Positions 44,803-64,000 of a DNA stretch of 64,000 bases are shown piece after piece. Below the pieces are notes generated by a model. It saw only the letters and a list, made by a program, of their open reading frames with translations. It ran no database searches and had not been told where the DNA came from. The DNA lies in assembly GCA_020881835.1 (NCBI GenBank), contig CP052876.1:1674001-1738000 (forward strand), given 5' to 3'. This stretch comes from Kineosporiaceae bacterium SCSIO 59966 (GTDB taxonomy: Bacteria; Actinomycetota; Actinomycetes; Actinomycetales; SCSIO-59966). The translations under genes and the position numbers were made by a program. Position 1 is the stretch's first letter. Each line of letters opens with the position of its first letter.

Positions 44803-46740
44803 TCAGCCGATCGGCCGGCGCAGGCCGCTGGCCCGTCGCACCGGCCGCTCGACGGCGGCGGTGACCGCGGCCGCGGTCCCGACGACCCGGACCCGTTCGC
44901 GGGCCCGGGTGACGGCGGTGTACAGGAGCTCACGGGTCAGCAGCGGTGAGGTCGCCGGCGGCAGCAGCAGCGACACGGCGCCGAACTGGCTGCCCTGCCC
45001 CCGGTGCACGGTCATCGCGTGCACGGTCTGCACGGCCGGCAGGCGGTGCGGGCGCACCAGCAGCGGGGCCTCGGGGGTGCCGAAGACGGCGACCACCCCG
45101 CCGGGCGCGGCGACGACGACACCCGTGTCGCCGTTGTACAGCCCGCTGTCGCGGTCGTTGGCGGTGACGAGCAGTGGCCGCCCGGGGTACCAGGGGCCGT
45201 GGGCCCCGCCCGGGTCGGGCCCGGTCTCCTCGGCGACCCAGGCCTCCACCTCGGCGGCCCAGTGCGCGACGCCGGCCGGGCCGCGGCGGTGAGCGAGCAG
45301 CAGCCGGTGCCGCTCCAGGGCGGCGAGCGCAGCGGGGACGTCTCCGCGGCGGGCGGCCCGGACCAGCTCGGTGCCCGCGGCCACCGCGTCGGCCCGCACC
45401 CCGGCGACGTCCGCGGCGGTGGGCCGCTCGGTGGTGACCTCGACGAAGGACACGGCGTCCCTGCCGGTGCGCAGCAGGTGGAGGACCTCCTCCGCGCGCC
45501 CGTGCCGGACGGCGCCAGCGAGCTCGGCGATGACGGAGCCGTGCCGGTGCACCCGTTCCAGCCGGACGACGCCGTTGCCGAGCGCGGTCCGGTCCGCCGG
45601 GTGCTGGGGGACGTCGTCCGGGACGGCGGTGGCGAGCAGTGCGGGCAGGGTCCCGGCGACCGGGGGGCGGGCCACGAGGTCGCCGAGGACGGCGCCAGCC
45701 TCGACCGAGGCGAGCTGGTCGGGGTCCCCGACGAGCACGACCCTCGCCTGGGGTCGCAGCGCCTCGAGCAGCCTGGCCATGAGCGGCAGGGACACCATCG
45801 AGGTCTCGTCGACGACCACGACGTCGTGCGGCAGGTGGTGGCCGCGGTGGTGGACGAACCGGGTGCTGGTCCCGGGCCGCCAGCCGAGCAGGCGGTGCAG
45901 GGTGGACGCGGTGAGACCGCCGAGCCGGTCGGCCGTCTGCCCGCCGACGACGCCGGTGCTGCGCAAGTCGGCCACCTCGGCCCGGACGGCTTCCTGCAGC
46001 CGGGCCGCGGCCTTGCCGGTCGGCGCGGCCAGGGCGATCCGCAGTCCCGGTCCGGCGACGTCGTCGAGGGCGGCCAGGAGCCGGGCGACGGTGGTGGTCT
46101 TGCCGGTGCCCGGTCCGCCGGTGAGCACGGTGAGCGGGCTCAGGACGGCGCAGGCGGTGGCGAGCCGTTGGCGGGCGTCCTGCGGCCGGGGGAAGACCCG
46201 CCGGGCGGCGTGCCCGGCGCGCAGCGGGTCGACCCCGGTCGGGCCGGTGCCCTGACCGGACCCGGCAGTGCCCTGGCCGGACCCGGCGGTGAGCCGGCCG
46301 TCCACGTGCCGGCGGACGAGCTGCTCGTCGCGCCAGTACCGGTCCAGGTACATCCGCCCGTCGACCCACCGGACCGGGCGCTCCGGTGACCCGTCGGGGC
46401 CGACCGCGACCAGCGGGCTGGCGGCGATGGCGGCGCGCCACTGCTCCGGGTGGGGCCAGGGCAGCGCACCGAGCGGCTCGGCGTCCTCCGCCTCGGGGAC
46501 GGCGAGCGCGTCGAGGTCGTCGAGGTCCAGGCACACGGACCCGGACCGCAGCGCCCGGACGGTGAGCGCGACGGCGAGCAGCACCCGTTCGTCGTCCTCG
46601 CCGGTGAGCCGGCCGAGCCGGCGGGCGACGTGGACGTCGGGGGCGGCGACGACGCCGGCCCGGTTGATCTCGGCGATCAGCGGCGGGGCGTGCACCGCGA
46701 TGCGGGGGTCGCTGCCGGCGGCGGCTTCCGGCGGGCTCAC
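44803..46740 (-). CDS. recD: Exodeoxyribonuclease V alpha subunit RecD
   Basis: 645 residues. SF1B helicase with Walker A GGPGTGKTTT (K214), VVDETSM Walker B-like motif II, GDPDQLASVEAG motif III, and a late AMTVHRGQGSQF and TAVTRARERV motif VI. It is the 5'-3' motor of RecBCD, which resects double-strand breaks and degrades linear foreign DNA. The GTG start overlaps the recB stop by four bases. A 21-base DNA duplication (46248-46289) encodes a repeated AGSGQGT linker before the helicase core. A frame extension to 46797 is not used because GTG 46740 fits the overlap and family start. Confidence 0.95.
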   Translation of the reverse strand: MSPPEAAAGSDPRIAVHAPPLIAEINRAGVVAAPDVHVARRLGRLTGEDDERVLLAVALTVRALRSGSVCLDLDDLDALAVPEAEDAEPLGALPWPHPEQWRAAIAASPLVAVGPDGSPERPVRWVDGRMYLDRYWRDEQLVRRHVDGRLTAGSGQGTAGSGQGTGPTGVDPLRAGHAARRVFPRPQDARQRLATACAVLSPLTVLTGGPGTGKTTTVARLLAALDDVAGPGLRIALAAPTGKAAARLQEAVRAEVADLRSTGVVGGQTADRLGGLTASTLHRLLGWRPGTSTRFVHHRGHHLPHDVVVVDETSMVSLPLMARLLEALRPQARVVLVGDPDQLASVEAGAVLGDLVARPPVAGTLPALLATAVPDDVPQHPADRTALGNGVVRLERVHRHGSVIAELAGAVRHGRAEEVLHLLRTGRDAVSFVEVTTERPTAADVAGVRADAVAAGTELVRAARRGDVPAALAALERHRLLLAHRRGPAGVAHWAAEVEAWVAEETGPDPGGAHGPWYPGRPLLVTANDRDSGLYNGDTGVVVAAPGGVVAVFGTPEAPLLVRPHRLPAVQTVHAMTVHRGQGSQFGAVSLLLPPATSPLLTRELLYTAVTRARERVRVVGTAAAVTAAVERPVRRASGLRRPIG

Positions 46741-49700
46741 CGGGTGCCGTCCAGGAGGGTGGACAGGCCGGTGACGACCGTGGTCGGGGGACGCCACGCC
46801 AGCACCCCGCAGGGGCTGCCGTCGACGACCGGGGTGGCCGGTCCGGCCATCCCGCGCACGAACAGGTACAGGCCGCCGCCGAGGTGGCGGTCGGGGTGGT
46901 AGCCGGGGACCCGCCAGCGCAGGTAGCGGTGCAGGGCGACGGTGTAGAGCAGCAGTTGCAGCGGGTAGTGGGAGCGCATCATCGCCTCGGCCATCGCCGC
47001 CGGCCGATAGTGCCCGAGGGTGAGCGGCTCGTCGGGGGCGGCGAGGTGGTTGGTCTTGTAGTCCACGACGACGTACCGCCGGTTCTCGGGCGGCCCGACC
47101 CGCAGCACGACGTCGATAGAGCCGGTGAGGTAGCCGAGCAGCCGGGCGCTGCCGAGGCCGTCGTCGAGCATCCGGTCGGGGTAGGCGGCGAACAGGTCGT
47201 CGGCGGGCAGCTCGCGGCGCAGCAGGTCCGCGACGTCGGCCAGGGCCCCGGCCACCCGACCGGCCGTTGCGGCGTCCCCGCCGCCTATCGGCAGACCGGC
47301 GTCCCCGCCGCCCAGCGGCAGCTCGAACTCCAGCTCCGCCAGCCGGTCGCGAGCCGGGACGTCGGCCAGCGTCAGCCCGTCGAGCGTCGGGCCGAGCGGC
47401 GTGGCGAGGACCGGTTCAAGAGCGGCGGCCAGGACCTCGGGAGCGACGCCCACGGTCCGCGCCGACCCGGACTCGGCGCAGCGACGGGCCAGCTCGGCGG
47501 CCGGGTCGCCGGCCTCCGGGTCGACGTGCTCGAGCACCTCGTGGACGACGGTCCCGAACGCCGCTCCCCCGGGCAGGTCGGCCATCGGGGAGGGCTGCGC
47601 CAACGGGTCGTCCCCGGCGGGCTCGCCGGCTACCTCCCCGGTCGCCTCCCCGGTTCCCGTGGCAGTGGCCGCACCGCCCCGGACGGCGATGTCGGTCTCG
47701 TCCTGGACGCCGGTGGTCTCCGGCTCGCTGGTCACCCCGGGCGCGGTGGCGTGCGCGGCTGCGGTGAGGCCGGTGTACGACGTCCGGCGCCAGGTCTGGT
47801 CGAGGACCCGGCCGAGGCGGCCCACGGACAGCTCCGCGCCGGTGGGCTCGGCCGCCGGCCAGTGCAGCCGGGCGGGGGCGGCGTCGACCAGCTCGTGCAC
47901 GACGGTCCCCTGCGAGCCCGCGGCGAGCCCCGCCAGCCGGGTGGCGACCGCGTCGTCGGCGAGGCGGGCGGCGGTGACCCGTTCGGGCGGCTGGGCACCG
48001 GGCGGGTGCCCGCCGAGCAGCAGCCGGGTCAGCGGCCCGCAGGCGGTGTTCCGCTGCGTCGGGCACCACCACAGGACGACCTGGGAGCGGGCCCGGGTCA
48101 GCGCGACGTAGAGCAGGCGCAGGTCCTCGCCGCGCTCCTCGGCCCGGTGGCGGGCGACGGCCTCGTCGTGGCCGGGGTCGGTGGAGCCGCCGACGGACAG
48201 CACCCGCTCGCCGCGCTCGTCGTGGTAGCGCAGCACCCCGGGCGGGCGACCGTCGTGGCGGTCCCAGGCGAACGGCACGTAGACGACGGGGAACTCCAGG
48301 CCCTTGGCCGAGTGCACGGTGACGACCTGGACGGCGGCGGCGTCGGTCTCCAGCCGCCGGCTGCGCTCCTCGGCGTAGTCGGCGTCGGCCTCCTGGGTGC
48401 GCCGGCGCAGCCACTCAGTGAGCGCGGAGGTCCCGAGCCCGTGCTCGAGGGCAGCGGCGTGCAGCACCTGCCCGATGTGGCGCAGGTCGGTGAGCACGCG
48501 CTCACCGGTGTCCGTGCGCAGCAGCCGCTCGGCCAGCCCGTCGGCTGCGGCCGCCTCGAGCAGGGCGGCGACCCCGCGGGTGGCGAGCAGCCGGCTCCAG
48601 CGGCGCAGGGTGTCGGCGAGGGCGTCGCGCTCGTCGTCCCCGGCGGTGGCCAGCCGGGCGGCGTCCCAGCCGAGGAAGGGGGTGAGGGCGGCCGCGGCCA
48701 CCAGCCCGGAGCGCCCGGGCTGCTCGAGGGCGGCGAGCAGGGTGGTCCAGGCCCGGGCGGCCGGGGTGTCGAAGACGCTGGCCTGGCCGGACACGACGGC
48801 GGGGACGCCGCAGGCGACGAGCTCGTCGCGGACCTGGGCGGCCTCCTTGTTGGTCCGGGTGAGCACGGCGACGTCGGCGGGCCGCAGCGGGCGCCAGCCG
48901 TCGCCGTCCTGCACCCGGACGCCGCCCAGCTGGCGGACGACGTCGGCGGCGACGTCGGCGACGACGAGGTCGCGGGCCGACTGGACCCTGGGGCCGGCGG
49001 ACGGCGAGCGGGGCCCGAACGCGGCCCGGGTCACCTGCCGGACCCGCAGCGGGGCGCCGCCGTCGAGCCGGCGGCCGGCGTGCTGGGCCTGCACCGGGTG
49101 GACGACGATCGCGTCGTCACCGAGGGCGGCGCCACCCAGGACGGCGTCCAGGGCGCGGGCCAGAGGGGCGTCGCTGCGCCAGCTGCGCCCGAGGGTGGCG
49201 ACGTGGTGGGCCCGGGTCCGGGCGGCCAGGTAGGCGTGCACGTCGCCGCCGCGGAAGGCGTAGACGGCCTGCTTGGGGTCGCCGATGAGGACGAGGGTGC
49301 GGTGCCCGTGGAACGCGCGCTCGAGCACGGTCCACTGCACGGGGTCGGTGTCCTGGAACTCGTCGACCATCACCACCCGGTAGCGCGAGCGGACGCGTTC
49401 GGCGACGACGGGTCCGTGCTCGGGGTGCACGAGGGCGTCGCGCAGCAGGGTGAGCTGGTCGTCGTAGTCGAGCAGCCGACGGGCCCGTTTGCGGCGGGCG
49501 ACCTCGGCGACGACGTCCCGGGCCAGGGCGTACCGGTGACCGGCCTGCGTGGCCGGGTCGGCGTCGGCGGGCTCGAGCCGCGCCTGCCGGTCCCCGGCCG
49601 CGGCGCGAGCGACCGCGCGGGCCTCCGAGACGCTGAGGACCGGGTCGGGGTCGTCGGCGTACCGCTGCAGGTACAGGTCGTCGACGACCTCGTCGACGAG

Positions 49701-50171
49701 GTCGGCGATGTCCGGCAGGAGCACCGCGTCACGGTCCATGTCCCCAGCGACCCCGAGGGAGAGCAGCATCTGGTGGCAGAAGCCGTGGGTGGTGGTGATG
49801 GTGGCGGCGTCGACGTCGGCGAGGGCCCGAGTGAGGCGGCTGCGGCGACGGTCGAGCTCGTCGTCGTCGACGTCGGCGAGCAACCGGATCAGCGGGTCGT
49901 CCGCGGTACGCGCGTCCACGGCTCGCAGGGCCCGTTCGGCGCTGACGAGCCGCTCCCGGACCCGGTCACGCAGCTCGCTGGTGGCGGCGCGACCGAAGGT
50001 GACGAGGAGCAGGTCGGCGAGGTCGGCGTGCCCCTCGGCGACGTAGCGGGTGGCGAGGGCGGCGATGGTGAAGGTCTTGCCGGTGCCGGCGCTGGCCTCG
50101 AGCACGGTGGTGCCGGTGGGCAGCGGTCCGCAGACGTCGAAGACGTCCGGTGGGGCGAGCAGGGAGGTCAT
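46737..50171 (-). CDS. recB: Exodeoxyribonuclease V beta subunit RecB
   Basis: 1,144 residues. SF1A helicase with Walker A ASAGTGKTFT (K32), VDEFQDTDPVQW motif II, GDPKQAVYAFRGGD motif III and ALTRARSQV motif VI. The C-terminal nuclease domain contains FGTVVHEVLEHV and VVDYKTNH (Asp and Lys of the catalytic site). A Gly/Thr/Glu-rich spacer around 830-870 joins the parts. RecB is the 3'-5' motor and the only nuclease of RecBCD. Both ends overlap its neighbours by four bases (recC before, recD after), so the subunits are made from one message. Confidence 0.96.
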   Translation of the reverse strand: MTSLLAPPDVFDVCGPLPTGTTVLEASAGTGKTFTIAALATRYVAEGHADLADLLLVTFGRAATSELRDRVRERLVSAERALRAVDARTADDPLIRLLADVDDDELDRRRSRLTRALADVDAATITTTHGFCHQMLLSLGVAGDMDRDAVLLPDIADLVDEVVDDLYLQRYADDPDPVLSVSEARAVARAAAGDRQARLEPADADPATQAGHRYALARDVVAEVARRKRARRLLDYDDQLTLLRDALVHPEHGPVVAERVRSRYRVVMVDEFQDTDPVQWTVLERAFHGHRTLVLIGDPKQAVYAFRGGDVHAYLAARTRAHHVATLGRSWRSDAPLARALDAVLGGAALGDDAIVVHPVQAQHAGRRLDGGAPLRVRQVTRAAFGPRSPSAGPRVQSARDLVVADVAADVVRQLGGVRVQDGDGWRPLRPADVAVLTRTNKEAAQVRDELVACGVPAVVSGQASVFDTPAARAWTTLLAALEQPGRSGLVAAAALTPFLGWDAARLATAGDDERDALADTLRRWSRLLATRGVAALLEAAAADGLAERLLRTDTGERVLTDLRHIGQVLHAAALEHGLGTSALTEWLRRRTQEADADYAEERSRRLETDAAAVQVVTVHSAKGLEFPVVYVPFAWDRHDGRPPGVLRYHDERGERVLSVGGSTDPGHDEAVARHRAEERGEDLRLLYVALTRARSQVVLWWCPTQRNTACGPLTRLLLGGHPPGAQPPERVTAARLADDAVATRLAGLAAGSQGTVVHELVDAAPARLHWPAAEPTGAELSVGRLGRVLDQTWRRTSYTGLTAAAHATAPGVTSEPETTGVQDETDIAVRGGAATATGTGEATGEVAGEPAGDDPLAQPSPMADLPGGAAFGTVVHEVLEHVDPEAGDPAAELARRCAESGSARTVGVAPEVLAAALEPVLATPLGPTLDGLTLADVPARDRLAELEFELPLGGGDAGLPIGGGDAATAGRVAGALADVADLLRRELPADDLFAAYPDRMLDDGLGSARLLGYLTGSIDVVLRVGPPENRRYVVVDYKTNHLAAPDEPLTLGHYRPAAMAEAMMRSHYPLQLLLYTVALHRYLRWRVPGYHPDRHLGGGLYLFVRGMAGPATPVVDGSPCGVLAWRPPTTVVTGLSTLLDGTR

Positions 50172-53100
50172 GACGTCTCGGTCTCCTCGTGCGCCAGCAG
50201 CGGGTGCCACACCCGCCGGGCCAGGACGCCGAACCGGGTGGTCTCCTGCGGCCACCAGGCCTGCTCGGTGGGGTCGGGGACGCCGGCCAGGGCGCTCAGG
50301 GGCACGTCGTCGCCCCAGCACAACCGGTGGTGCTCGTCGGCCCGCTCGAACCCGTCGTGCCAGGTGCGGGCGGCGGCCTCCAGGGCGACCGGCTCGGTGT
50401 CGCCGCCGAGCCGGGCCCGGGCGTAGGAGGCGGCGGTGTCGACGGGCAGCGGCAGCGGCTGGCGGGCGGCCCGGGGGCGCAGCCGGACGAGCTCGTCGAG
50501 CCGCCGGGTCGCGGTGGCCTGGTCCAGTGGTGGCAGCAGCGCCGCGGTGGCCGTGGGCCGCCCGGTCGGGCCGCGTCCCACGGTGACAGCCCGCCACCCG
50601 CCGTCCGGGCGGGCGGCGCTGAGCGCGAGCAGCTGGACCCAGGCCCGCAGCCGGTGCTTGGCGCCGAGCCTGGAGTACACGGCGCGTACGACGGTGCGTT
50701 CGTGCACGCCGGTGACGCTGCCGGTGAGCCGGGTGCCGTCGGGCAGGTCGACGGCGACGTCGAGGACCTCGCCGTCACCCGGGTCGTCGCCGGTGTGCCG
50801 GCGGGTGAGGGCCAGGACCGGGGCGAGCTCGTCGAGGACCGTGTTGAGCACCGCCCGGCCCAGCGCCCGGGGCGGTACCTCTCCGCGGCGCCACTCCGCG
50901 GCCGCGGCCCGGTCGCGGGGCACGCCGGCGAGCGCGGCCTGGAGCAGCCGGTTGCCGACCGCCCACTTCTGCAGGGGGTCGACGGTGAGCGGCAGCCGGT
51001 CCTCGACGTCCGCCTCGTCCCCGGCCAAAGAGATGCCCAGCCGGTGACGCAGGAACCACTTGGCCGGGTGCTCGAGGAGGGCGACGAGGTCGTCGAGGTC
51101 GACCTCGGCGGGCGAGGGCTCGGCGGGCAGCGGCCCGGGCAGGAACGGCGGTGTCGGGGTGCGTCCGGCGCGGGCGGCGAGCGCGGCGCGGTGGGCGTGG
51201 ACGTCGAAGCTGAACGGGCCCGGCCGGCGCAGGGCGCCGGGGGTGAAGGCCCGGTCGTCGACCGGCTGCAAGGGGTGCCGGACGACGACGTGGTCGCGGA
51301 CGGGCCGGCCGTCACCGGCGGCGGCGGTCACGTCGAGGGCGTCGAGCAGCTCCCCGACCGGGACGGCGGGCGCCCGGACGGCTCCGGTGCGCTCGTCCGC
51401 GCCGGCGTACAGGACGACGAGGCGCTCCCCGGCCGCGGCCACCGCGTCGAGGAACAGCTGGCGGTCCTCGCTGCGCTGGTCCCGCTCCCCCAGGCACGGG
51501 TCGCGCAGCAGGACGTCGTCCCCGTCGGTACCGGTGCCGCGGGGGAACGCCCCGTCGTCCATGCCGAGCAGGCACACGACCCGGTGCGGGACGGCGCGCA
51601 TGGGTTCCAGCGAGCACACCGTCAGGGCGCCGGTGCGGAACCCGGCGCGGGTGGGCCGGCCCTCGAGCCGGCCAGCGAGCAGGGCCCGCACGTCGGGCAG
51701 CCGCAGCGGCACCCCGTCGTGGGCCTGCCCGGCGCGTCGCACGTCGGCGAGCACGCGGCGGGCCTGCACGGCCTGCCAGGACTGGTCCGGCGGGACGTCG
51801 GTGAGCAGGTCCAGGGCCTGGTCGAGGTCGTCGAGCCAGTGGGCCAGCGGCCGGGTGCCGTCGAGGGCGGCCAGCACGGTGCCCAACCGGTCGACGAGCT
51901 CGGCCAGGCGTCCGGCGAGGTCGACGTCCGTGCTGTCGACGTCGTCCAACGGCAGCGCTGACCCGACGTAGCGGTGGTCCTCCTCGGCCATGGCGACACC
52001 GAGCAGCAGCCGGTCCAGGCCGGCGTCCCAGGTGCCCTGGCGCAGGACGCCGAGCCCGTACCGGGCGCGGCGCCGGGTGTCCTCGCCCCACCGGGTCCCG
52101 GTGGCGACCACCCAGCTGCGGACGCGGTCGAGGTCGTCGTCGCCGAGGGCGAACCGGCGCCGGACCGGTTCGCGGGCGGCGAGGTCGAGGACCTCCGAGG
52201 CGGTGACGCGCCCGTCGGCGAGACGCAGCAGGTCCTCGAGCACTCCGAGCACGGGGTTGGTGCGCCGCGGTGACCGGTCGGCCAGGCGGACCCGCAGCGT
52301 CTGGCCGGGGTGGACGACGTCCGGGCCGTCGTCGTCCCCGGCCAGGCCGAAGGTCGCGGTGACGAGCGGGGCGTAGGCCTCGACGTCCGGGCACATGACG
52401 AGGACGTCGCGCGGCTCCAGGGTGGGGTCGTCGGCGAGCAGGCCGACCAGTGCCTCGCGGAGCACCTCGACCTGGCGGGCCCGGCCGTGGCAGGCGTGGA
52501 CCTCGACGCTGCGGTCCTGCGGGTCGAACGGCACCGGCGGGAAGGTGGCGTCGTCGTCCCGCAGCCGCTGCTGCAGGGCGCCGAGCAGGGTGGCCGGGGG
52601 CGCCGGGGCCGGGTGGTGCTCGTCTGTGTGCGGGACGGCCAGCGCGCCGAGTCGAACCTGGAGCTCGGCGGTGTCGCGGGCCATCGACGCGAGCAGCGGG
52701 TGGGCGGCCAGCGGCGGAAGCGCCCGGCGGCGCGGGCCCGGCGCCGACGCGGCGGCCACCTTCTCCCACAGCCGGGGGGACGGGTGCGGCAGCCACAGAT
52801 GGACGTCGCGGTGCTCGGCCAGGGCGGCGAGGACGGCGAGGTGCTCGGCGGGCAGCCGGGTCGGCCCGAACACGCTGAGCCGGGCCGGCAGGTCCACCCG
52901 GTCGGGCTGGTCGCGCAGCAGAGCGACGGCGTCCTCGATCCGCTCGGCGGGACTGGGGACGCCGACCTCGCGGCGCACCCGCCGCCAGAGCTCGGGCTGC
53001 CACCGCAGGTCCGCCGGGACGGTGCCGCCGGCGCCGTCCCCGTCCCCGCCGTCGAGCCACTCGAGCACGAGCCCGGGTCGCTGCCGGTGGTAGGAGGCGA

Positions 53101-53635
53101 ACAGGCCGGCCAGGTGCCGGGCGACGGCGAGACGGCGGCCGCGGCGCGGGCCGGTCGGGTCGTCGGGGCCAGCAGAGTCAGCCGCGTCGACAGCGTCGGC
53201 AGGGTCGGCGGGGTCGGCGGCATCAGCGGGGTCGGGGTCGACCGCGACGTCCAGGCCGAGGTGCCGGGTGAGCACCTCGCACCACGGCTCGCCCGCGGAG
53301 TGGTCGATCACCCGCAGCAGCGGCCAGAGGAGCCGGTCGGGGTGCCACGGGTCGTCGTCCGGGTCGACGTCGAGCACCCCCGCGAGCACCCCGGCCAGCA
53401 CGGAGCCGACGAGCCGGGACGGGGAGGCGAAGTCGATGTTGGCGCACACCCCGGTCTCGCCGTCCGGGCCGGCGCCGAGGTGGTGGGACAGCCGCTGGGC
53501 CAGCCACCGCTCGACGCCCCGGGTGGGGACGGCCACGACGTCCGGGGTGAACGGGTCCTGCGGGGGCACGGCGAGCACCGCGGCGAGCGGTGCGACCAGC
53601 GCGTCCGCGCGTTCCGAGCGGTGCGTCCTCAGCAC
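50168..53635 (-). CDS. recC: Exodeoxyribonuclease V gamma subunit RecC
   Basis: 1,155 residues, near the usual RecC length. Landmarks: THRSERADALVAPLA near the start, VAVPTRGVERWLAQRLSHHLG, FGPTRLPAEHLAVL, MCPDVEAYAPLV and CLLGMDDGAFPRG. RecC holds the complex together and scans for Chi-like sites with inactive helicase folds. GTG 53635 has GGGGAGGGG upstream and gives the normal family start; the frame continues to 53743 but without similarity. First gene of the recC-recB-recD operon. Confidence 0.95.
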   Translation of the reverse strand: MLRTHRSERADALVAPLAAVLAVPPQDPFTPDVVAVPTRGVERWLAQRLSHHLGAGPDGETGVCANIDFASPSRLVGSVLAGVLAGVLDVDPDDDPWHPDRLLWPLLRVIDHSAGEPWCEVLTRHLGLDVAVDPDPADAADPADPADAVDAADSAGPDDPTGPRRGRRLAVARHLAGLFASYHRQRPGLVLEWLDGGDGDGAGGTVPADLRWQPELWRRVRREVGVPSPAERIEDAVALLRDQPDRVDLPARLSVFGPTRLPAEHLAVLAALAEHRDVHLWLPHPSPRLWEKVAAASAPGPRRRALPPLAAHPLLASMARDTAELQVRLGALAVPHTDEHHPAPAPPATLLGALQQRLRDDDATFPPVPFDPQDRSVEVHACHGRARQVEVLREALVGLLADDPTLEPRDVLVMCPDVEAYAPLVTATFGLAGDDDGPDVVHPGQTLRVRLADRSPRRTNPVLGVLEDLLRLADGRVTASEVLDLAAREPVRRRFALGDDDLDRVRSWVVATGTRWGEDTRRRARYGLGVLRQGTWDAGLDRLLLGVAMAEEDHRYVGSALPLDDVDSTDVDLAGRLAELVDRLGTVLAALDGTRPLAHWLDDLDQALDLLTDVPPDQSWQAVQARRVLADVRRAGQAHDGVPLRLPDVRALLAGRLEGRPTRAGFRTGALTVCSLEPMRAVPHRVVCLLGMDDGAFPRGTGTDGDDVLLRDPCLGERDQRSEDRQLFLDAVAAAGERLVVLYAGADERTGAVRAPAVPVGELLDALDVTAAAGDGRPVRDHVVVRHPLQPVDDRAFTPGALRRPGPFSFDVHAHRAALAARAGRTPTPPFLPGPLPAEPSPAEVDLDDLVALLEHPAKWFLRHRLGISLAGDEADVEDRLPLTVDPLQKWAVGNRLLQAALAGVPRDRAAAAEWRRGEVPPRALGRAVLNTVLDELAPVLALTRRHTGDDPGDGEVLDVAVDLPDGTRLTGSVTGVHERTVVRAVYSRLGAKHRLRAWVQLLALSAARPDGGWRAVTVGRGPTGRPTATAALLPPLDQATATRRLDELVRLRPRAARQPLPLPVDTAASYARARLGGDTEPVALEAAARTWHDGFERADEHHRLCWGDDVPLSALAGVPDPTEQAWWPQETTRFGVLARRVWHPLLAHEETETS

Positions 53636-53770
53636 GTCGTCCCCTCCCCGTGACCTGTGGCCGGCTGGCCCCCGGCCGGTGCACCGGGCCGTGACGGCCA
53701 CGGCTGGTGCGTCGCCAGCGACCCTAGAGGACCCCACCGACAACGCCCGGACGCCGCCACGCGAGGCCGG

Positions 53771-56535: not shown

Positions 56536-57771
56536 TCACCACAGGTGGTCGAGGAGGGTGTCGAGCACGGCCTCCTCGTGCACGGCTCGCCCGGTGCGAC
56601 GCATCGCCTCACCGAGCGCGGGGTCCCACTCGGGGGCCACGGGTGCCCCGAGCAGCGCGGGCCCGTCGGCACGGACGGCGGCCTGGTAGTCCTCGGCGGA
56701 CATCCGCCAGGGGCGGCAGCCGGCCGATACGACGAGCCGGTTCGCGATCGCGACCCCGGGCCAGTCGAAGTCGCCGTGGTAGTCCAGGTGGGCGCCGCCG
56801 GTCCGCAGCTGCCGCAGCACGTCGGAGGTGACCAGCCCAGGCATCCCGGACGTGCACACCACCGGCACCGCTCCCCCGCGCCGCTCGGCGACGGCCTCCA
56901 GCACGCGGGGGTTCTCGCAGACCAGGACCCGGGTGCCCCCGGGCACGGCGACGTCCGCCCGGGCCAGGTCCCACGCGGTGAGGTGCACGGGGTCGCCGTC
57001 GTCCGCGGCCAGAGCCAGCCGGTGCGCGAGCGCGGATCGGGCTGCGGGCCGCAGGCCGAGGGTCAGGCAGGTCCCGGACACGGCGTCGGGGCGCACCCCG
57101 TGCCGCTCCCACAGGGCGCGCCGGGCGGCGGCGGTGCGCGGCGCCTCCTCCCCCACGGCGGCGGCGAGCGCCCGCAGCACCAGGGCGCCCAGCACGGTGC
57201 CGTCGTCCAGGGCGTGGGCGTCCCCGGCGACCCGGGCGGCCAGCACGTTGCGGCCGGTGGGCACGGGGTCGCCCTCCCCCAGCAGACCGGCGGCCACGGC
57301 CGCCGCCTGGACGAGCACCCGGCCGGCGTCCTGGGGGTCGGTGACCCGGGCCAGCAGGCCGGAGCGACGGACGCCGGCCAGCCACGGCTCCACCCAGGGC
57401 TGGGCCGCGACCGCGGGGTGGTCGGCGAGCCAGGACCGCAGCGCCGCGTACGGGGCCTGCCGGGCCGCGGCGGCGGCAGACCGTTCCGCCACGCGGTCAC
57501 GCAGCGGGCCGCCGACCGCCTCCACCAGGGCCACCACGCCGGCGGTGCCGGCCCGCTCGCGCGCCACCGCGTCCAGCAGCTCCAGGTCGATGCGCACCCG
57601 GTCGCGCAGCACCGGCCGGCCGAGCAGGCCGGAGACGGCGTGGCGGACCGACCGGTCCGGGCAGTCCACCGTGATCGTGCCGACCGGTTCGAGCCCGTTG
57701 CGCTCCAGCCGGCTGCGGGCGGCCCTCCACACCGGCGACAGCGCCGGGTCGAGCGCCCACGGGGCGGGCAT
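56536..57771 (-). CDS. jetD: Wadjet JetD-like Toprim nuclease (TIGR02679/DUF2399)
   Basis: 411 residues. The C-terminal DUF2399 region holds a Toprim fold: VLVCENPRVLE with E286 and DYHGDFDWPGV with D334 and D336, the metal-binding acids of topoisomerase VI-A-like nucleases. The N-terminal part corresponds to DUF3323. In Wadjet systems JetD cuts plasmid DNA after the JetABC condensin has extruded and compacted a small circle. The start codon overlaps the jetC stop by one base (TGATG), so expression is coupled. Last gene of the operon. Domain identity is clear; the plasmid-defence role is taken from studied Wadjet systems. Confidence 0.88.
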   Translation of the reverse strand: MPAPWALDPALSPVWRAARSRLERNGLEPVGTITVDCPDRSVRHAVSGLLGRPVLRDRVRIDLELLDAVARERAGTAGVVALVEAVGGPLRDRVAERSAAAAARQAPYAALRSWLADHPAVAAQPWVEPWLAGVRRSGLLARVTDPQDAGRVLVQAAAVAAGLLGEGDPVPTGRNVLAARVAGDAHALDDGTVLGALVLRALAAAVGEEAPRTAAARRALWERHGVRPDAVSGTCLTLGLRPAARSALAHRLALAADDGDPVHLTAWDLARADVAVPGGTRVLVCENPRVLEAVAERRGGAVPVVCTSGMPGLVTSDVLRQLRTGGAHLDYHGDFDWPGVAIANRLVVSAGCRPWRMSAEDYQAAVRADGPALLGAPVAPEWDPALGEAMRRTGRAVHEEAVLDTLLDHLW

Positions 57772-60700
57772 CAGGCGCCGACCGCCTGGAGCCGGGCGCC
57801 GTCCCAGGTGTACCGGTACTGGGCGATCCCCCGCTGCCCCGGGTCGCGCAGCGCCTCGTAGATCGCCAGGGACGGCACGGTCGCGTGGTCGCCCCAGAGC
57901 CGTTCGCTGGTGACGATGAAGTCGAGGTCGAGGTCGACGAGCAGGCCGAACAGCAGCGGGTGGGTCCGGACGTCGATCTTGGGGAAGGCGTCGTCGAGCA
58001 GGATGAACCGCGGAGCGTGCGGTGCGGCGCCGGCCAGGGAGGTGAAGTGCGCGGCGGCGGCCGCGAACAGGGGCAGGTAGCACACCACCTTCTGCTCCCC
58101 CTGGGACAGCGGGGAGCGCCGGTGCAGGTCCAGCCAGGTACCCGGCGCCTCGGGGCGGGTGTAGCGGATCCGGAAGGCGAACCACTGCCGGTAGTCCAGC
58201 GCCCGGCTCAGGTGCTCGGTGTAGCTCTCCTCGGGCGCCTCCACCCGGGAGGCCTCGATGAGCCGGTGCAGCGCGTCCCGCAGCTCGGTCCGCTCGCTGG
58301 GCAGCAGCGCGCCGACGTCGCGCCCGAGCAGGTCGACCGCGCGCCGGGCGTCCTCGGGGACGTCCTCGCGCATCTGCCAGCGCAACCGGACCGCGATGCC
58401 CTGGGACGTCGTCACCTGGCCCAGCAGCCGGTTCATCCCCTCGACGAGATCGGCGGCCTCGAGCCGGCGCCGGCGCAGCACCGCGCCGAGCTCGCCGATG
58501 AGGTGCTCCTCGAACAGGGTGCGCTCCCGTTCGGTGAGCAGCTCCCGGTCGCGGCGGACGGCGGCCTCCAGCCGGGTGGCCAGCTCGGTCACCGGGTGCT
58601 CCCCGCCGTCGTCGCGGCCGAGCGCGGCGAGCAGGTCACCGACGGGCAGCACCCGCGGCTCGTGGTCGGCGGCGTCACTGCTCGTCGCCTGCTGCAGCGC
58701 GGCGTACAGGGCGGCCGCGTCGACCGGACGCGACGGCTCCGGCAGGGCGGCGAACCGGCGGGCCAGGTCCAGGACCGGCCGCGGCACGGGCGCCCCGGCC
58801 TGCAGTCCCGCGGCCAGGCTGAGTGCGGCGCCGTCCGGGGAGCCGCCGTCCGGGGAGCCGCCGTCCGGGGAGCCGCCGTCTGGGGAGTGACCGTCCCGGG
58901 CGACGTCGACGGCACCGACGAGTCCCGGGACGTCGCCGAGCTCGGCGAGGCGACGGCCGGCGGCGACGACGAGCGGCTCGGCCTCCTCCCGCCGCTGGGC
59001 GGCGGCCTGCAGGGCGGTCCGCGCGGCGCCGAGCTGCTCACGCAGCCGGCCGGCGTCCTGGCGCAGCACCCGCAGCTCGGCGCGTGCGCTCTCGGTCTCG
59101 CCGCGGGCGGCGGCGAGCCGGCGTTCCAGCTCGGCGATGCCGGCCCCCACGGCGTCGGCGAGCGTGCGGTGCTGCTCGTCCGCCGACTGGGCCGCCGCCC
59201 TGGCCTGCGCCGCCTGCTCGGCCAGATTCTCGGCGTGTTCGGCGTCCCCGCTCCACAGCGCCCAGTCATCGCCCCACCGCTTCAGTCGCCGCTGCAGGTC
59301 GGGGACGGCGTCGACGAGCCGGTTCACCCGGGTCCGCAGGGTGACGAGCAGGTCGCGGCGCTCGGCGAGCGCCTGCCCGGAGGTGGGCAGCCGGTGCCGG
59401 TCGGCGAGGCTGACCAGGGCGGCCCGGCGCTCGGCGGCCACCGTCCGTGCCGCGACCGCCGCCCGCTCGGCGGTGTCGGCCTCCTCCTCGGCTCGGCGGG
59501 CGGCCTCGGTGCGCTCCTCCAGCCGCGTCCAGGCGGTGAGCAGCGGTTGACCGGAGGGCAGGTCGGCGAGCCAGCTCTCGATCTCGCGGCGACGGGTCCT
59601 GGCGGTCTCCCGCTGGCGGCGGGCGTCGTCGCGGCGGCCGGTGGCGGCGAGGATCCGGGCGGTGACGTCGGCGAGGCGGCGCTCGCGCTCCGCGGCCCGG
59701 GCGGTCGCCCCGAGGTACTGGGCCGCGGGCTTGGCGGCCCGGCCGGTCAACGGGCCCAGCCGCCACGACCCGTCGAGGGCGACGGTCGCGGTCCCCGGGG
59801 ACACGGCGGCGTCCGTGTCGCCCACGGCGACCCGGCGCAGGACGCCGGTGACCAGGTCCGCGGTGACCGGGGACCCGGCGGGTACGTCGACGACGAGGAC
59901 GTCGGCCAGGGTGCGGCCGGCGGCGGGCTCGCCGCTGGGCAGGACGACGTCACGGCGGTCGGGGTCGAGCAGCGCACCGTCGGCCCGCACCCAGGCGTCG
60001 AGCAGCCCGGAGGACTCCAGGGCTGCCTCCAGGGCGGCGCGCCGATCGTCGTCCAGGTCTGCGGCGACGTCGACGAGCCGCCACAGCGGGGCGCCGTCAG
60101 CGTCGTCCCGGGGAGTGCGGCCGAGCGGCGGGGCGGGCGGCGCCGGGTCCCGCTCGGCCTCGACCGCCTGGCGTTCGGCGGCCAGCTCGGCGAGCAGCTG
60201 GTCCTCCGCCCGTTCGGCGGCGGCCGCAGCCGCCTCGGTCTCCCGCAGCTGGCCGGTCTGCGGCTCGGCGGCGGCCCGGACGGCGGCGGGCAGCCCCGCG
60301 ATGGTGGTCGCCGTGAGCTCGGGCAGCTCGACCGGGACGCCGCGCGCGTCGCCGCGCCAGGTGGCCAGCCCGGTGAGCAGCCGCTCCTCGGCGTCGGCGG
60401 CCAGCCGGGCGGCGTCCTGGCGTCGTCCGCGTTCCGCCTCGGCGCGCCGCTCGGTCTCCGCGGCCCGCCGCTCGGCCGCCTCCCGCTCGGCGTCCGCCCG
60501 CTCGGCGGCCTTGCGCGCGTCGTCGACGACGGCGACCGCGACGAGCAGCTCCCCGAGCGGACCGAGCACCGAGCGCACCGCGGTGGCGTGCTCGGTGAGC
60601 CGGTCGACCAGGGCGTCGGCGGTGCCACGGTCGGTCAACGGGCCGTCGCGCAGGCCGGCCGGCAGGGCGGGGACCTGCGCCAGCCCGGCGTCCGACGCCG

Positions 60701-61961
60701 CCCCCAGCACCTCGAGACCGGCGGCGGCCGCCGACGCCGTCTCCTCGAGCAGGCCGCGGGCGTCGGCGGCGACCCGCTCACCGACCTGCTGGGCCCGCTG
60801 CCGGGCGTGCTCGGCGGTCCGCTGGGCCGTGTCGGCGACGTCGGCGGCCTCCCGGGCCCGGGCGGCGAGGTCCAGCACCCGTTGGTGGCTGCGGGCCTCC
60901 GGGCTGGACTCCAGCTCGGCGGTGCGCGCCTGCGCCCGCTGCAGCCGCTGCTCGGTGTCCGCGAGCCGGGCGTCCACCTCGTCGTTCTCGCGCTGGCGGT
61001 CCTGCGCGTCCTGGGCCGCCCTGGCCTCGGCGTCCCGGCGCCGGCCCAGCTCGCGGTATGCCTCGACGAAGGCGGCGCCGCGCTCCCGGGCCCGGGCGGT
61101 GGCGTAGCCGCGGTAGGTGGCGGCCATCGCGGCCACGGCCTCGGCGGCCCGTCCGCGGCGCTCGATCTGCTCGCCGAACGCGGCGAGCTCGTCGAAGGTG
61201 TCCCCGGCGGACCGCACCGCGTCGTCGTCGAGCTGGGGCAGGGCCTGGGCGAGCTGGTCGGCCAGGCGCGCGGGTTCGATGTCCTCGCCGATCTGCGGCT
61301 GGCGCAGCCAGTACAGCAGCCGGAGCAGCTCGTCGTAGCGGGCGGCGTCGAGGCCGAACAGGACCCGCCCGACGTGTGCCTTGTAGGCGCGGGCCTGGTC
61401 GAAGAAGGAGCCGTCGGCGGACACCTCGGCCCGCAGCCGGTCCCGGGTCAGCGGGCCGGCGTCGTCCTCGAGGAACAGGTCGACGCCCACCGACCGCGGG
61501 CAGGTGAAGTACCAGGACGTCGCGGTCCTGGCGGTGGAGGAGGCCCGGACGCCGACCCCGCAGGTGAGCACCTCGCGCTCGCCGTCCGGCGTGGTCCGGG
61601 CGAACTCCACCCACAGGTAGCCGGTGCGGTTGCCGTCGTGACCGTCGGTCATCAGCCACAGCAGGCTGGTGTGGTGCCGGCCCGAGGCGGTGATCCGCAT
61701 CTTGTCGCCGTCGATCGCGAACGGCAGCAGCATCTCCAGGGTCTTGGACTTGCCGGCGCCGTTCGCGCCGCGCAGCAGCATCCGGCCGTCGGCCAGCTCG
61801 AAGACCTGCTCGTCGTACTGCCACACGTTGAGCACGCCGGCGCGGGACAACCGGTACCGGCCGGCCGACGCCGTCACGTGATCGGTCGTCTGATCGGTCG
61901 TCGCGGGCCCGGCGGTCACCTGCTCGGCGGTCAGCTGCTCGGTGACGGTGCGCGCACTCAC
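57771..61961 (-). CDS. jetC: Wadjet JetC-like SMC/MukB-type ATPase (TIGR02680)
   Basis: 1,396 residues with the two-headed ABC architecture of SMC-like proteins. N-terminal Walker A GANGAGKS at 65-72; C-terminal signature LSQGEQK at 1285-1291 and Walker B FILLDDAFPK with D1323 and D1324. Between them are long heptad-rich, Ala/Arg/Glu-rich coiled-coil stretches (about 270-500, 640-720, 880-1010) broken by a hinge-like globular part (about 750-870). It should be the loop-extruding motor of the Wadjet complex. The GTG start overlaps the jetB stop by four bases. The linker (SPDGG)n at about 1024-1043 comes from a 15-base DNA repeat. Confidence 0.9.
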   Translation of the reverse strand: MSARTVTEQLTAEQVTAGPATTDQTTDHVTASAGRYRLSRAGVLNVWQYDEQVFELADGRMLLRGANGAGKSKTLEMLLPFAIDGDKMRITASGRHHTSLLWLMTDGHDGNRTGYLWVEFARTTPDGEREVLTCGVGVRASSTARTATSWYFTCPRSVGVDLFLEDDAGPLTRDRLRAEVSADGSFFDQARAYKAHVGRVLFGLDAARYDELLRLLYWLRQPQIGEDIEPARLADQLAQALPQLDDDAVRSAGDTFDELAAFGEQIERRGRAAEAVAAMAATYRGYATARARERGAAFVEAYRELGRRRDAEARAAQDAQDRQRENDEVDARLADTEQRLQRAQARTAELESSPEARSHQRVLDLAARAREAADVADTAQRTAEHARQRAQQVGERVAADARGLLEETASAAAAGLEVLGAASDAGLAQVPALPAGLRDGPLTDRGTADALVDRLTEHATAVRSVLGPLGELLVAVAVVDDARKAAERADAEREAAERRAAETERRAEAERGRRQDAARLAADAEERLLTGLATWRGDARGVPVELPELTATTIAGLPAAVRAAAEPQTGQLRETEAAAAAAERAEDQLLAELAAERQAVEAERDPAPPAPPLGRTPRDDADGAPLWRLVDVAADLDDDRRAALEAALESSGLLDAWVRADGALLDPDRRDVVLPSGEPAAGRTLADVLVVDVPAGSPVTADLVTGVLRRVAVGDTDAAVSPGTATVALDGSWRLGPLTGRAAKPAAQYLGATARAAERERRLADVTARILAATGRRDDARRQRETARTRRREIESWLADLPSGQPLLTAWTRLEERTEAARRAEEEADTAERAAVAARTVAAERRAALVSLADRHRLPTSGQALAERRDLLVTLRTRVNRLVDAVPDLQRRLKRWGDDWALWSGDAEHAENLAEQAAQARAAAQSADEQHRTLADAVGAGIAELERRLAAARGETESARAELRVLRQDAGRLREQLGAARTALQAAAQRREEAEPLVVAAGRRLAELGDVPGLVGAVDVARDGHSPDGGSPDGGSPDGGSPDGAALSLAAGLQAGAPVPRPVLDLARRFAALPEPSRPVDAAALYAALQQATSSDAADHEPRVLPVGDLLAALGRDDGGEHPVTELATRLEAAVRRDRELLTERERTLFEEHLIGELGAVLRRRRLEAADLVEGMNRLLGQVTTSQGIAVRLRWQMREDVPEDARRAVDLLGRDVGALLPSERTELRDALHRLIEASRVEAPEESYTEHLSRALDYRQWFAFRIRYTRPEAPGTWLDLHRRSPLSQGEQKVVCYLPLFAAAAAHFTSLAGAAPHAPRFILLDDAFPKIDVRTHPLLFGLLVDLDLDFIVTSERLWGDHATVPSLAIYEALRDPGQRGIAQYRYTWDGARLQAVGA
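58831..58890. repeat. 15-bp tandem repeat inside jetC
   Basis: Four units of CCGTCCGGGGAGCCG, the last slightly changed, in frame, encoding SPDGG repeats after the second coiled-coil region. It is likely a flexible joint, and a place where copy number may vary between strains. Confidence 0.8.
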
Positions 61962-63205
61962 TGGCCCTCCTCGTCGTCGAACAGGGACGCCTCGCCGGAG
62001 GGCGCCGCCGCGGCCAGTGTCGGGCGGGCTGCGTACCGGGCGGCGGCCGCGTGCAGCCACCACCCGCCGCCGGGGTCGGGGCGGACCAGGCCGGCGTCGG
62101 TGAGGACGTCGGTGGCCTCCGCCCGGGCCGCCTGCGGGTTGTCGCGGTGCTCCCGGCGCAGCCCCGCGCCCCACTCGGCCAGCACGTCCTCGGCCGCCCG
62201 GGCCACGACGTCCGGGCCGAGCCACCACCACACCCGGTCCGCGGTGTCCGCGCTCCGGGCCGCCGGCCGGGCCACCTCCACCAGCCGTTCCAGCCACAGG
62301 AGGGCGAGGTGCCGCGCGGACCCGGTGCCGGGGAACGGGGCGTCGGTCAGCTCGTCGAGCGGGTCGACGGCCAGGGCACCCTCGGCGCGCAGCTCGAGGT
62401 CGAGCCCGAACCGGTCGGCGAACCAGTCCCGCTCCCGGTTGCGGTTGCGCCGCCACCACTCGGCCTGGTCCTCGGTGAGGTCGGTGACGGACAGCACCGG
62501 GGTCTCCACGAGCCGGCGGCGGACGGCGACCCGGGCGCCCCCGGACGCCGAGGGCAGGGCCGCGACGTCCAGCAGCTCGCGGGGGCCGGTGGCCGAGGCC
62601 AGCGGGGCGGCGACGAGCAGGCCGAGCCGGTCGCGGCGGACGTCGAGCAGGGACAGGGTGCGCTGCTCGGCCCAGTGCTCGAGGTCACCGTCCCGTTCGG
62701 TGAGCACGCCGAGGTCGACGAGGGCCAGCAGGGCCCCGTGCAGGGCCCGCCGGTCGGCGATCGCGTCGAGGTCCACGTCGAGGCCGGCGTCCCCGGCCGC
62801 GGAGCGGACCTCGGCGACGAGCTCGTCGACGAGCAGCTGGGTCTTGCACCGGGTGAGCGCGGCGAGGGTGAGGCAGAGCAGGGCGTAGCCGCGGGGCCCG
62901 AACGGCCGGCCGGACCGGCGCCGCAGGGGCCGTGAGGCGTCGTCGCCGAGACCGGCCTTGAACAGCCGGGCCGCGCCCGGTTCGACGACGAGGCGGTACC
63001 CGAGGCCGTCGGCGAAGGTCCTCGTCAGCTCGTCGCGGTGCCGCCGGACGAGGCGCAGCAGGGCGGCGGAGTCGTCGTCCTCGTCGGTGACCAGGGGCGT
63101 GCGGAGCAGGCCACGGGCGGCGCGTCGACGCTCCTGGGCGGCCTGCAGGTCCCCGGCGGGCGCGGGACGGTCGACCCGGGGCTGGGTCACTGGTCCCCCA
63201 TCCAT
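61958..63205 (-). CDS. jetB: Wadjet JetB-like protein (TIGR02678/DUF2398)
   Basis: 415 residues. Landmarks of TIGR02678 are LVTDEDDDSAALLRLVRRHRDEL near the start (landmark only), RPFGPRGYALLCLTLAAL, and SVTDLTEDQAEWWRRNR in the middle. In Wadjet the JetB protein is the MukE/kite-like winged-helix subunit that, with JetA, closes the JetC ring. ATG 63205 lies 10 bases after the jetA stop; GTG 63190 behind GGGGGA is an alternative. The stop overlaps jetC. It ends in an acidic tail (SLFDDEEGQ). Confidence 0.85.
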   Translation of the reverse strand: MDGGPVTQPRVDRPAPAGDLQAAQERRRAARGLLRTPLVTDEDDDSAALLRLVRRHRDELTRTFADGLGYRLVVEPGAARLFKAGLGDDASRPLRRRSGRPFGPRGYALLCLTLAALTRCKTQLLVDELVAEVRSAAGDAGLDVDLDAIADRRALHGALLALVDLGVLTERDGDLEHWAEQRTLSLLDVRRDRLGLLVAAPLASATGPRELLDVAALPSASGGARVAVRRRLVETPVLSVTDLTEDQAEWWRRNRNRERDWFADRFGLDLELRAEGALAVDPLDELTDAPFPGTGSARHLALLWLERLVEVARPAARSADTADRVWWWLGPDVVARAAEDVLAEWGAGLRREHRDNPQAARAEATDVLTDAGLVRPDPGGGWWLHAAAARYAARPTLAAAAPSGEASLFDDEEGQ

Positions 63206-63215
63206 GTCACGGCGC

Positions 63216-64000
63216 TCACGCGCTGACCTCCTGCTGCCCGGTGCGGACATCTGTCGCGGTGGTGAGGCTAAGGGTCAGGTCCGACAGCACGAGCCGCCCT
63301 TCCGGGCTGGCGATGGTCGTGCTGCGCCCGGGGGTGCGGCGGACCGCCAGGCGGAAGGCGGCCTGGCTGTCGGTGGACGCGGTGGCGTCGGCGCGGGCCT
63401 CCCCGCCGGCGCCGAGTGCCGGGCCGCTCCCGGTGAGCGCCCGGGCCAGCACCTCCAGCAGGGCCGCGCGGGCGTCGTCGGAGATCCGCAGCACCTCCGG
63501 CTCGCCGGTGTGCCGGGCCACCTCGGCCAGGGCGGCGGCCCGCCGGCGCTCAGCCGCCTGCCGCTCGGCGAGCCGGGCGCGCTTGGCGTCGGTGAAGTCC
63601 TCGCGGCGTCCGGAGCGGCCGGTGACCTTGCGCTCACCGCGTTGCCGCAGGGTCACCGGCACCTCCGCGACCGGGGTGCGCCACCAGGAGGCGGTGGCCG
63701 GGACCGGGTCGGCGTCGTCGTCCGCCGGGAAGGCCAGGTGGCGACAGGAGTACAGGCCGAACGCAGCCGCCCACAGCGCGTGCGCCGTGGCGTCGTCCGC
63801 CTCATCGAACCAACCGGCGAGGCGCAGCAGGTCGGCGTACCGGCTGCGCTCCCGGTCGCTGCTCGCGGCGATCCGGCGCAGGTTGACCAGCAGTGCCCGC
63901 ATGGCCTCGGTGGCGAGCCGGCGGACCCCGTCGGCGTCGGCGTCCCGGCCGGGGGTGCCGACGAACCAGCTGTGCAGACCGTCCCAGTCACGGGGGTCCA
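63216..64000 (-). CDS. jetA: Wadjet JetA-like protein (TIGR02677/DUF2397), C-terminal part
   Basis: Only the last 261 residues are in the window; the gene starts beyond the right edge. The visible part contains DPRDWDGLHSWFVG, ALLVNLRRIAASSDRERSRYADLLRLAGWF and AFGLYSCRHL, which fit TIGR02677 proteins. In Wadjet JetA is the MukF-like kleisin. It is followed by jetB with 10 bases between. It ends RTGQQEVSA. The order A-B-C-D, all leftward, is the standard order of these operons. Confidence 0.82.
   Translation of the reverse strand, partial: DPRDWDGLHSWFVGTPGRDADADGVRRLATEAMRALLVNLRRIAASSDRERSRYADLLRLAGWFDEADDATAHALWAAAFGLYSCRHLAFPADDDADPVPATASWWRTPVAEVPVTLRQRGERKVTGRSGRREDFTDAKRARLAERQAAERRRAAALAEVARHTGEPEVLRISDDARAALLEVLARALTGSGPALGAGGEARADATASTDSQAAFRLAVRRTPGRSTTIASPEGRLVLSDLTLSLTTATDVRTGQQEVSA

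Follow-up and report, generated by a model that had tools for sequence, protein, structure and literature searches.

A chromosomal type II Wadjet operon from a sub-group with two linked substitutions in the JetC ATPase site

Introduction

Which kind of Wadjet system is encoded by the jet genes of this actinobacterial chromosome, and does its SMC motor carry the ATPase site of the type II complex that has been characterised? Type I Wadjet systems cut circular but not linear DNA, need both ATP and the JetC ATPase, and are explained by total extrusion of a DNA loop, which leads to collision of the motors and activation of JetD (reviewed in PMC10586767). The type II JET complex of Neobacillus vireti cuts naked circular DNA in vitro, has a channel-less hinge, and is unable to bypass obstacles (PMC12647877). 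An initial annotation of the present locus, made from the sequence alone, had proposed a Wadjet JetABCD operon and had assigned its domain set to type III.

Results

A complete jetABCD operon

The window is the whole stretch of DNA analysed, 64,000 nucleotides (bases 1674001-1738000) from an actinobacterial genome of 3.10 Mb in a single contig. At its upper end, intact jetA, jetB, jetC, and jetD genes follow one another head-to-tail and end to end on the minus strand in A-B-C-D order. Only the C-terminal half of the kleisin gene jetA (63216..64793, minus strand, 525 aa) falls within the window (63216..64000), and the 793 bases of its 5' end lie outside. Because the full 525-residue gene can be read from the genome, we rejected a JetA truncated by the window edge, and the loss of its N-terminus that the initial annotation had envisaged did not occur. 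The KITE subunit is encoded by jetB (61958..63250 or 63190, minus strand, 410-430 aa); the GTG at 63190 is the more likely start, as a GGGGGA Shine-Dalgarno-like run precedes it. The SMC motor of the complex is the product of jetC (57771..61961, minus strand, 1396 aa), which has a GTG start that overlaps the jetB stop as GTGA and is the only TIGR02680 gene in the genome. The start of jetD (56536..57771, minus strand, 411 aa, ATG start) overlaps the jetC stop as TGATG, and its product has an N-terminal DUF3323 domain and a C-terminal DUF2399 Toprim nuclease domain. These coordinates bear out the four consecutive genes with nearly touching or overlapping ends that had been described.

The operon belongs to type II

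HMM searches placed all four products above the curated NCBIfam cut-offs, in agreement with the family matches that had been claimed: JetA scored 203 with TIGR02677 (cut-off 166), JetB 148 bits with TIGR02678 (cut-off 125), JetC 846 bits with TIGR02680 (cut-off 463), and JetD 244 bits with TIGR02679 (cut-off 196). Pfam identified DUF2397 in JetA (PF09660, E=9e-109), DUF2398 in JetB (PF09661, E=7e-88), an SbcC Walker B in JetC, and DUF3323 (PF11796) together with DUF2399 (PF09664) in JetD. In the PADLOC search, the four proteins matched JetA2 (E=1e-179), JetB2 (E=3e-105), JetC2 (E~0), and JetD2 (E=1e-122), respectively; type I models gave only weak matches, to JetB1, JetC1, and JetD1 with none for JetA, and no Jet types other than II and weak I were matched by any of the four.

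Structural comparisons led to the same family. JetC matched chain A of PDB 9qe0 by sequence in its N-terminal and C-terminal heads as well as in the hinge region (E=1e-75), and JetA matched chain E of the same entry (E=1e-17), which is titled 'Neobacillus vireti Wadjet-II JetABC dimer'. Sequence searches of the PDB with JetB and JetD gave no matches, but a fold search matched both. The best fold match of the JetB AlphaFold model (pLDDT 74) was 9qe0_D (E=1e-14), with type I JetB and MukE ranking next; that of the JetD model (pLDDT 93.5) was C. glutamicum MksG/JetD (8b7f), followed by Topo VI-A and Spo11. Thus, the operon shares all four families with the N. vireti Wadjet-II complex (nvJET; PDB 9qe0, 9qe1; Roisne-Hamelin, Liu and Gruber 2025), being related to it by sequence in JetC and JetA and by fold over 380 columns in JetB, with an alignable hinge region. 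With the type I Wadjet/MksBEFG systems of E. coli GF4-3, P. aeruginosa PA14, and C. glutamicum it has in common the kleisin-KITE-SMC-Toprim plan and the match of its JetD model to MksG, but its JetB has roughly double the length of the JetB chains of type I.

Type II membership calls for the JetA, JetB, JetC, and JetD families in adjoining A-B-C-D order on one strand, which is the arrangement found here. The matches to the PADLOC type II models and the homology to 9qe0 therefore make the operon type II rather than the proposed type III, to which we give next to no credence: no PADLOC type III model was matched, type II models matched all four proteins, and the matched structure bears a Wadjet-II title. 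The broader claim of a Wadjet JetABCD operon was borne out by the NCBIfam, PADLOC, and 9qe0 matches alike, and we conclude, with a probability of about 0.9, that the chromosome carries a complete type II Wadjet operon here.

The JetD nuclease residues are intact

The metal-binding glutamate of the JetD Toprim domain, E286 (56914..56916, minus strand), and its DxD motif, D334-F335-D336 (56764..56772, minus strand), show no variation in an alignment of 27 JetD proteins. The initial annotation had listed E286, D334, and D336 as intact, and its numbering is right for the 411-residue protein; its other proviso, that the locus might be a non-Wadjet MukBEF relative lacking JetD, is countered by the presence of an intact jetD with a TIGR02679 match and its Toprim acids. 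In the broader set of type II homologues, every sequence that aligns at its site has the glutamate, and the Toprim acids are kept in both of the JetC sub-groups described below, with one exception among complete rows: in the type II relative L126, the second aspartate of the DxD motif is glycine (GDFG), and this JetD homologue is possibly an inactive nuclease. In C. glutamicum MksG, a JetD homologue, Toprim changes at E236 or D279 drastically impair nuclease activity (PMC10123090).

Two linked substitutions in the JetC ATPase site

A motif scan and alignment with relatives located the Walker A motif of JetC, GANGAGKS, at residues 65-72 (61746..61769, minus strand). The signature motif, LSQGEQ, occupies residues 1285-1290 (58092..58109, minus strand) and has glutamine in place of the first glycine of LSGGE; the Walker B motif, LLDDAF, occupies residues 1321-1326 (57984..58001, minus strand) and has Asp1324 at the normal position of the catalytic glutamate. 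Walker and signature motifs had been noted previously and are all present, but the initial annotation was silent on both the Walker-B aspartate and the LSQGE signature. N. vireti JetC, by contrast, has an SGGE signature and LDEAF with the canonical catalytic glutamate. This canonical ABC site, SGGE with a Walker-B DE, is not a criterion of the family and is absent here, and the protein still passed the family models.

The loci collected, mostly from Actinomycetota, provided 119 type II-like C-terminal heads. The signature was SQGE (76 heads) or SEGE (2 heads) in 78 of them, each with DD in Walker B, and SGGE, STGE, SAGE, or SSGE in the remaining 41, each with DE; the change in the signature and the change in Walker B were thus paired without exception. 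In a maximum-likelihood tree of the heads, calculated with the two motif columns and three long-branch rows left out, a single branch with 100/99 support separated the DD group from the DE group. When the three long-branch rows were kept, a second change appeared, arising from two outlying SMC-like proteins at weakly supported nodes. Because the split falls on one branch, it represents one historical event, and the association, although perfect, is unreplicated within Wadjet. Actinomycetota account for every DD row found so far; a few related MAG contigs that are filed under other groups have no C-terminal head. The DE rows also include Bacillota and Pseudomonadota.

This JetC sub-group is therefore defined by a composite ATPase site with two linked substitutions, SGGE to S[Q/E]GE in the signature and glutamate to aspartate in Walker B, and the characterised N. 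vireti type II complex belongs to the other, LSGGE/LDE, sub-group. Actinobacterial LSQGE/LLDD relatives from Pseudonocardia, Nocardioides, Nostocoides, Ornithinimicrobium, and Streptomyces share the operon order, the motifs, and an intact JetD with the operon studied here, and the C-terminal JetC heads are up to 78% identical (L078).

A private repeat in JetC

A 15-bp tandem repeat at 58829..58887 (minus strand; 3.9 copies, 97% matches, TRF score 111) encodes (SPDGG)n at JetC residues ~1026-1049, about 60-80 residues ahead of the C-terminal head. It had been read as a joint between coiled coil and head. The repeat itself is real, but we rejected a conserved joint, since the repeat occurs in this JetC alone among those aligned, being absent even from the actinobacterial LSQGE/LLDD relatives, and in relatives the region around it (query columns 985-1130) varies from 114 to 166 aa compared with 146 here. 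No feature of the repeat points to a functional joint. The simplest reading of the alignment is that the repeat would have expanded recently within a tolerant linker.

Genomic surroundings

The operon is followed downstream by genes for an SDR, a dienelactone hydrolase, and BrkB, beyond which come recC, recB, and recD. The last three form an operon (window 44803-53743, minus strand) a few kb away that encodes RecC, RecB, and RecD of 1191, 1286, and 664 aa. Upstream, past the window, are genes that encode PNPOx-like and NERD proteins, a Schlafen-group-3 helicase, and a transposase, and farther upstream GmrSD_C, UvrD-like, and HNH genes precede a BREX-type set. Given these defence genes, BREX included, the operon borders a defence island. 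The BREX-type locus lies ~17-36 kb from jetA, outside the window (L003:17382-19926 plus L146:1486-18499, genome about 1755400-1774500), and contains BrxHI, BrxD, PglZ, BrxC, a dGTPase-like gene, and PglX. Beside jetA, the NERD gene (minus strand) and the Schlafen-group-3 helicase gene (plus strand) stand back to back (L003:1267-4324, window 65267-68324); neither had a strong PADLOC match, and the two are possibly an undescribed defence pair.

A search for a conserved partner found that none of 10 neighbouring genes recurs in the flanks of 76 related loci, save for one weak SDR match (L066), and the actinobacterial LSQGE/LLDD relatives have other genomic neighbours, which indicates that the operon moves as a unit. 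The proximity of recBCD is no evidence of a functional partnership, since recBCD is not found in the flanks of related loci.

Sporadic distribution

Genomes with matches above the cut-off numbered 17 of 297 in the same order and 24 of 396 in the phylum, and 20 plasmid records carried copies; the distribution is sporadic. Most relatives with a whole locus have the genes adjoining in A-B-C-D order, as do the annotated plasmid copies. On a 149-kb circular plasmid of Alicyclobacillus dauci (L109), a type II Wadjet operon has as neighbours a split cas12b and a gene for a PemK/MazF toxin, so that a plasmid here bears an anti-plasmid system.

A partial parallel in RecF

The C-terminal head of JetC gave a weak NCBIfam match to RecF (E=7e-5), and most RecF proteins examined resemble JetC in having a non-glycine signature position and a DD Walker B. 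RecF differs in being without the coiled-coil arm, the hinge, and the JetA, JetB, and JetD partners of JetC. The RecF of the same genome (L143:1423-2574, minus strand) has SHGE with LVLDD, and among PDB chains the D. radiodurans protein has SRGE with LLLDD and that of T. tengcongensis SQGQ with LLLDD. Thermus RecF breaks the pairing, having SRGE with LLVDE, and this weakens RecF as independent proof that DD and the altered signature go together. The species names given to these chains come in part from PMC5794780. The two aspartates in T. tengcongensis RecF contact magnesium through water, and ATP hydrolysis by RecF is negligible (PMC5794780).

Discussion

In most respects, the operon is a sound and ordinary type II Wadjet; its one under-explored feature is the ATPase site of its sub-group. 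By analogy with characterised systems, we infer that it is expressed and restricts plasmids. JetA, JetB, and JetC would form a dimeric, ATP-driven complex that extrudes DNA loops; on a small circle, extrusion would run to its end, the two motors would meet, and the Toprim nuclease JetD would become active and cut the DNA, so that plasmids would fail to establish. The Walker-B aspartate of JetC could instead suggest an MksBEF/MukBEF-like condensin that organises the chromosome, no longer serves in defence, and retains JetD as a passenger. We regard this as very unlikely, as jetD is intact with every Toprim acid kept, presence in 17 of 297 genomes of the order is unlike that of a housekeeping condensin, copies are found on plasmids, and BREX genes lie nearby.

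The altered LSQGE/LLDD site may change ATP hydrolysis: the motor of the sub-group could run more slowly or be gated differently, or the aspartate may simply serve as the catalytic acid. Another proposal is that the sub-group hydrolyses ATP poorly and acts as a RecF-like DNA clamp or sensor that ATP switches, and not as a fast extruder of loops. That all 78 heads with S[QE]GE also have DD is consistent with this proposal, as are the DD motifs of the D. radiodurans, T. tengcongensis, and own-genome RecF proteins and the negligible hydrolysis by RecF (PMC5794780). Nevertheless, we consider it improbable, because Thermus RecF combines SRGE with DE and the pairing is thus no rule in RecF, because an aspartate is able to act as a catalytic carboxylate, and because the remainder of the JetC motor is homologous to N. 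vireti JetC. With the canonical Walker-B glutamate absent and most RecF proteins alike in this respect and negligible in hydrolysis, the motor activity of this JetC is not to be taken for granted.

In a tentative extension that we consider unlikely, type II Wadjets would fall into two sub-groups, deeply separated and different in the chemistry of ATP hydrolysis, of which the one so far found only in Actinomycetota, with its RecF-like coupled site, may measure and cut circles by slow or DNA-gated hydrolysis. Mutation of the Walker-B glutamate is the usual means of stopping SMC motors. Here the change of this glutamate to aspartate extends across a whole natural branch and always accompanies a change in the signature, and herein lies the interest of the sub-group: whether an LSQGE/LLDD motor still extrudes loops and licenses cutting would show which parts of the ABC site extrusion needs.
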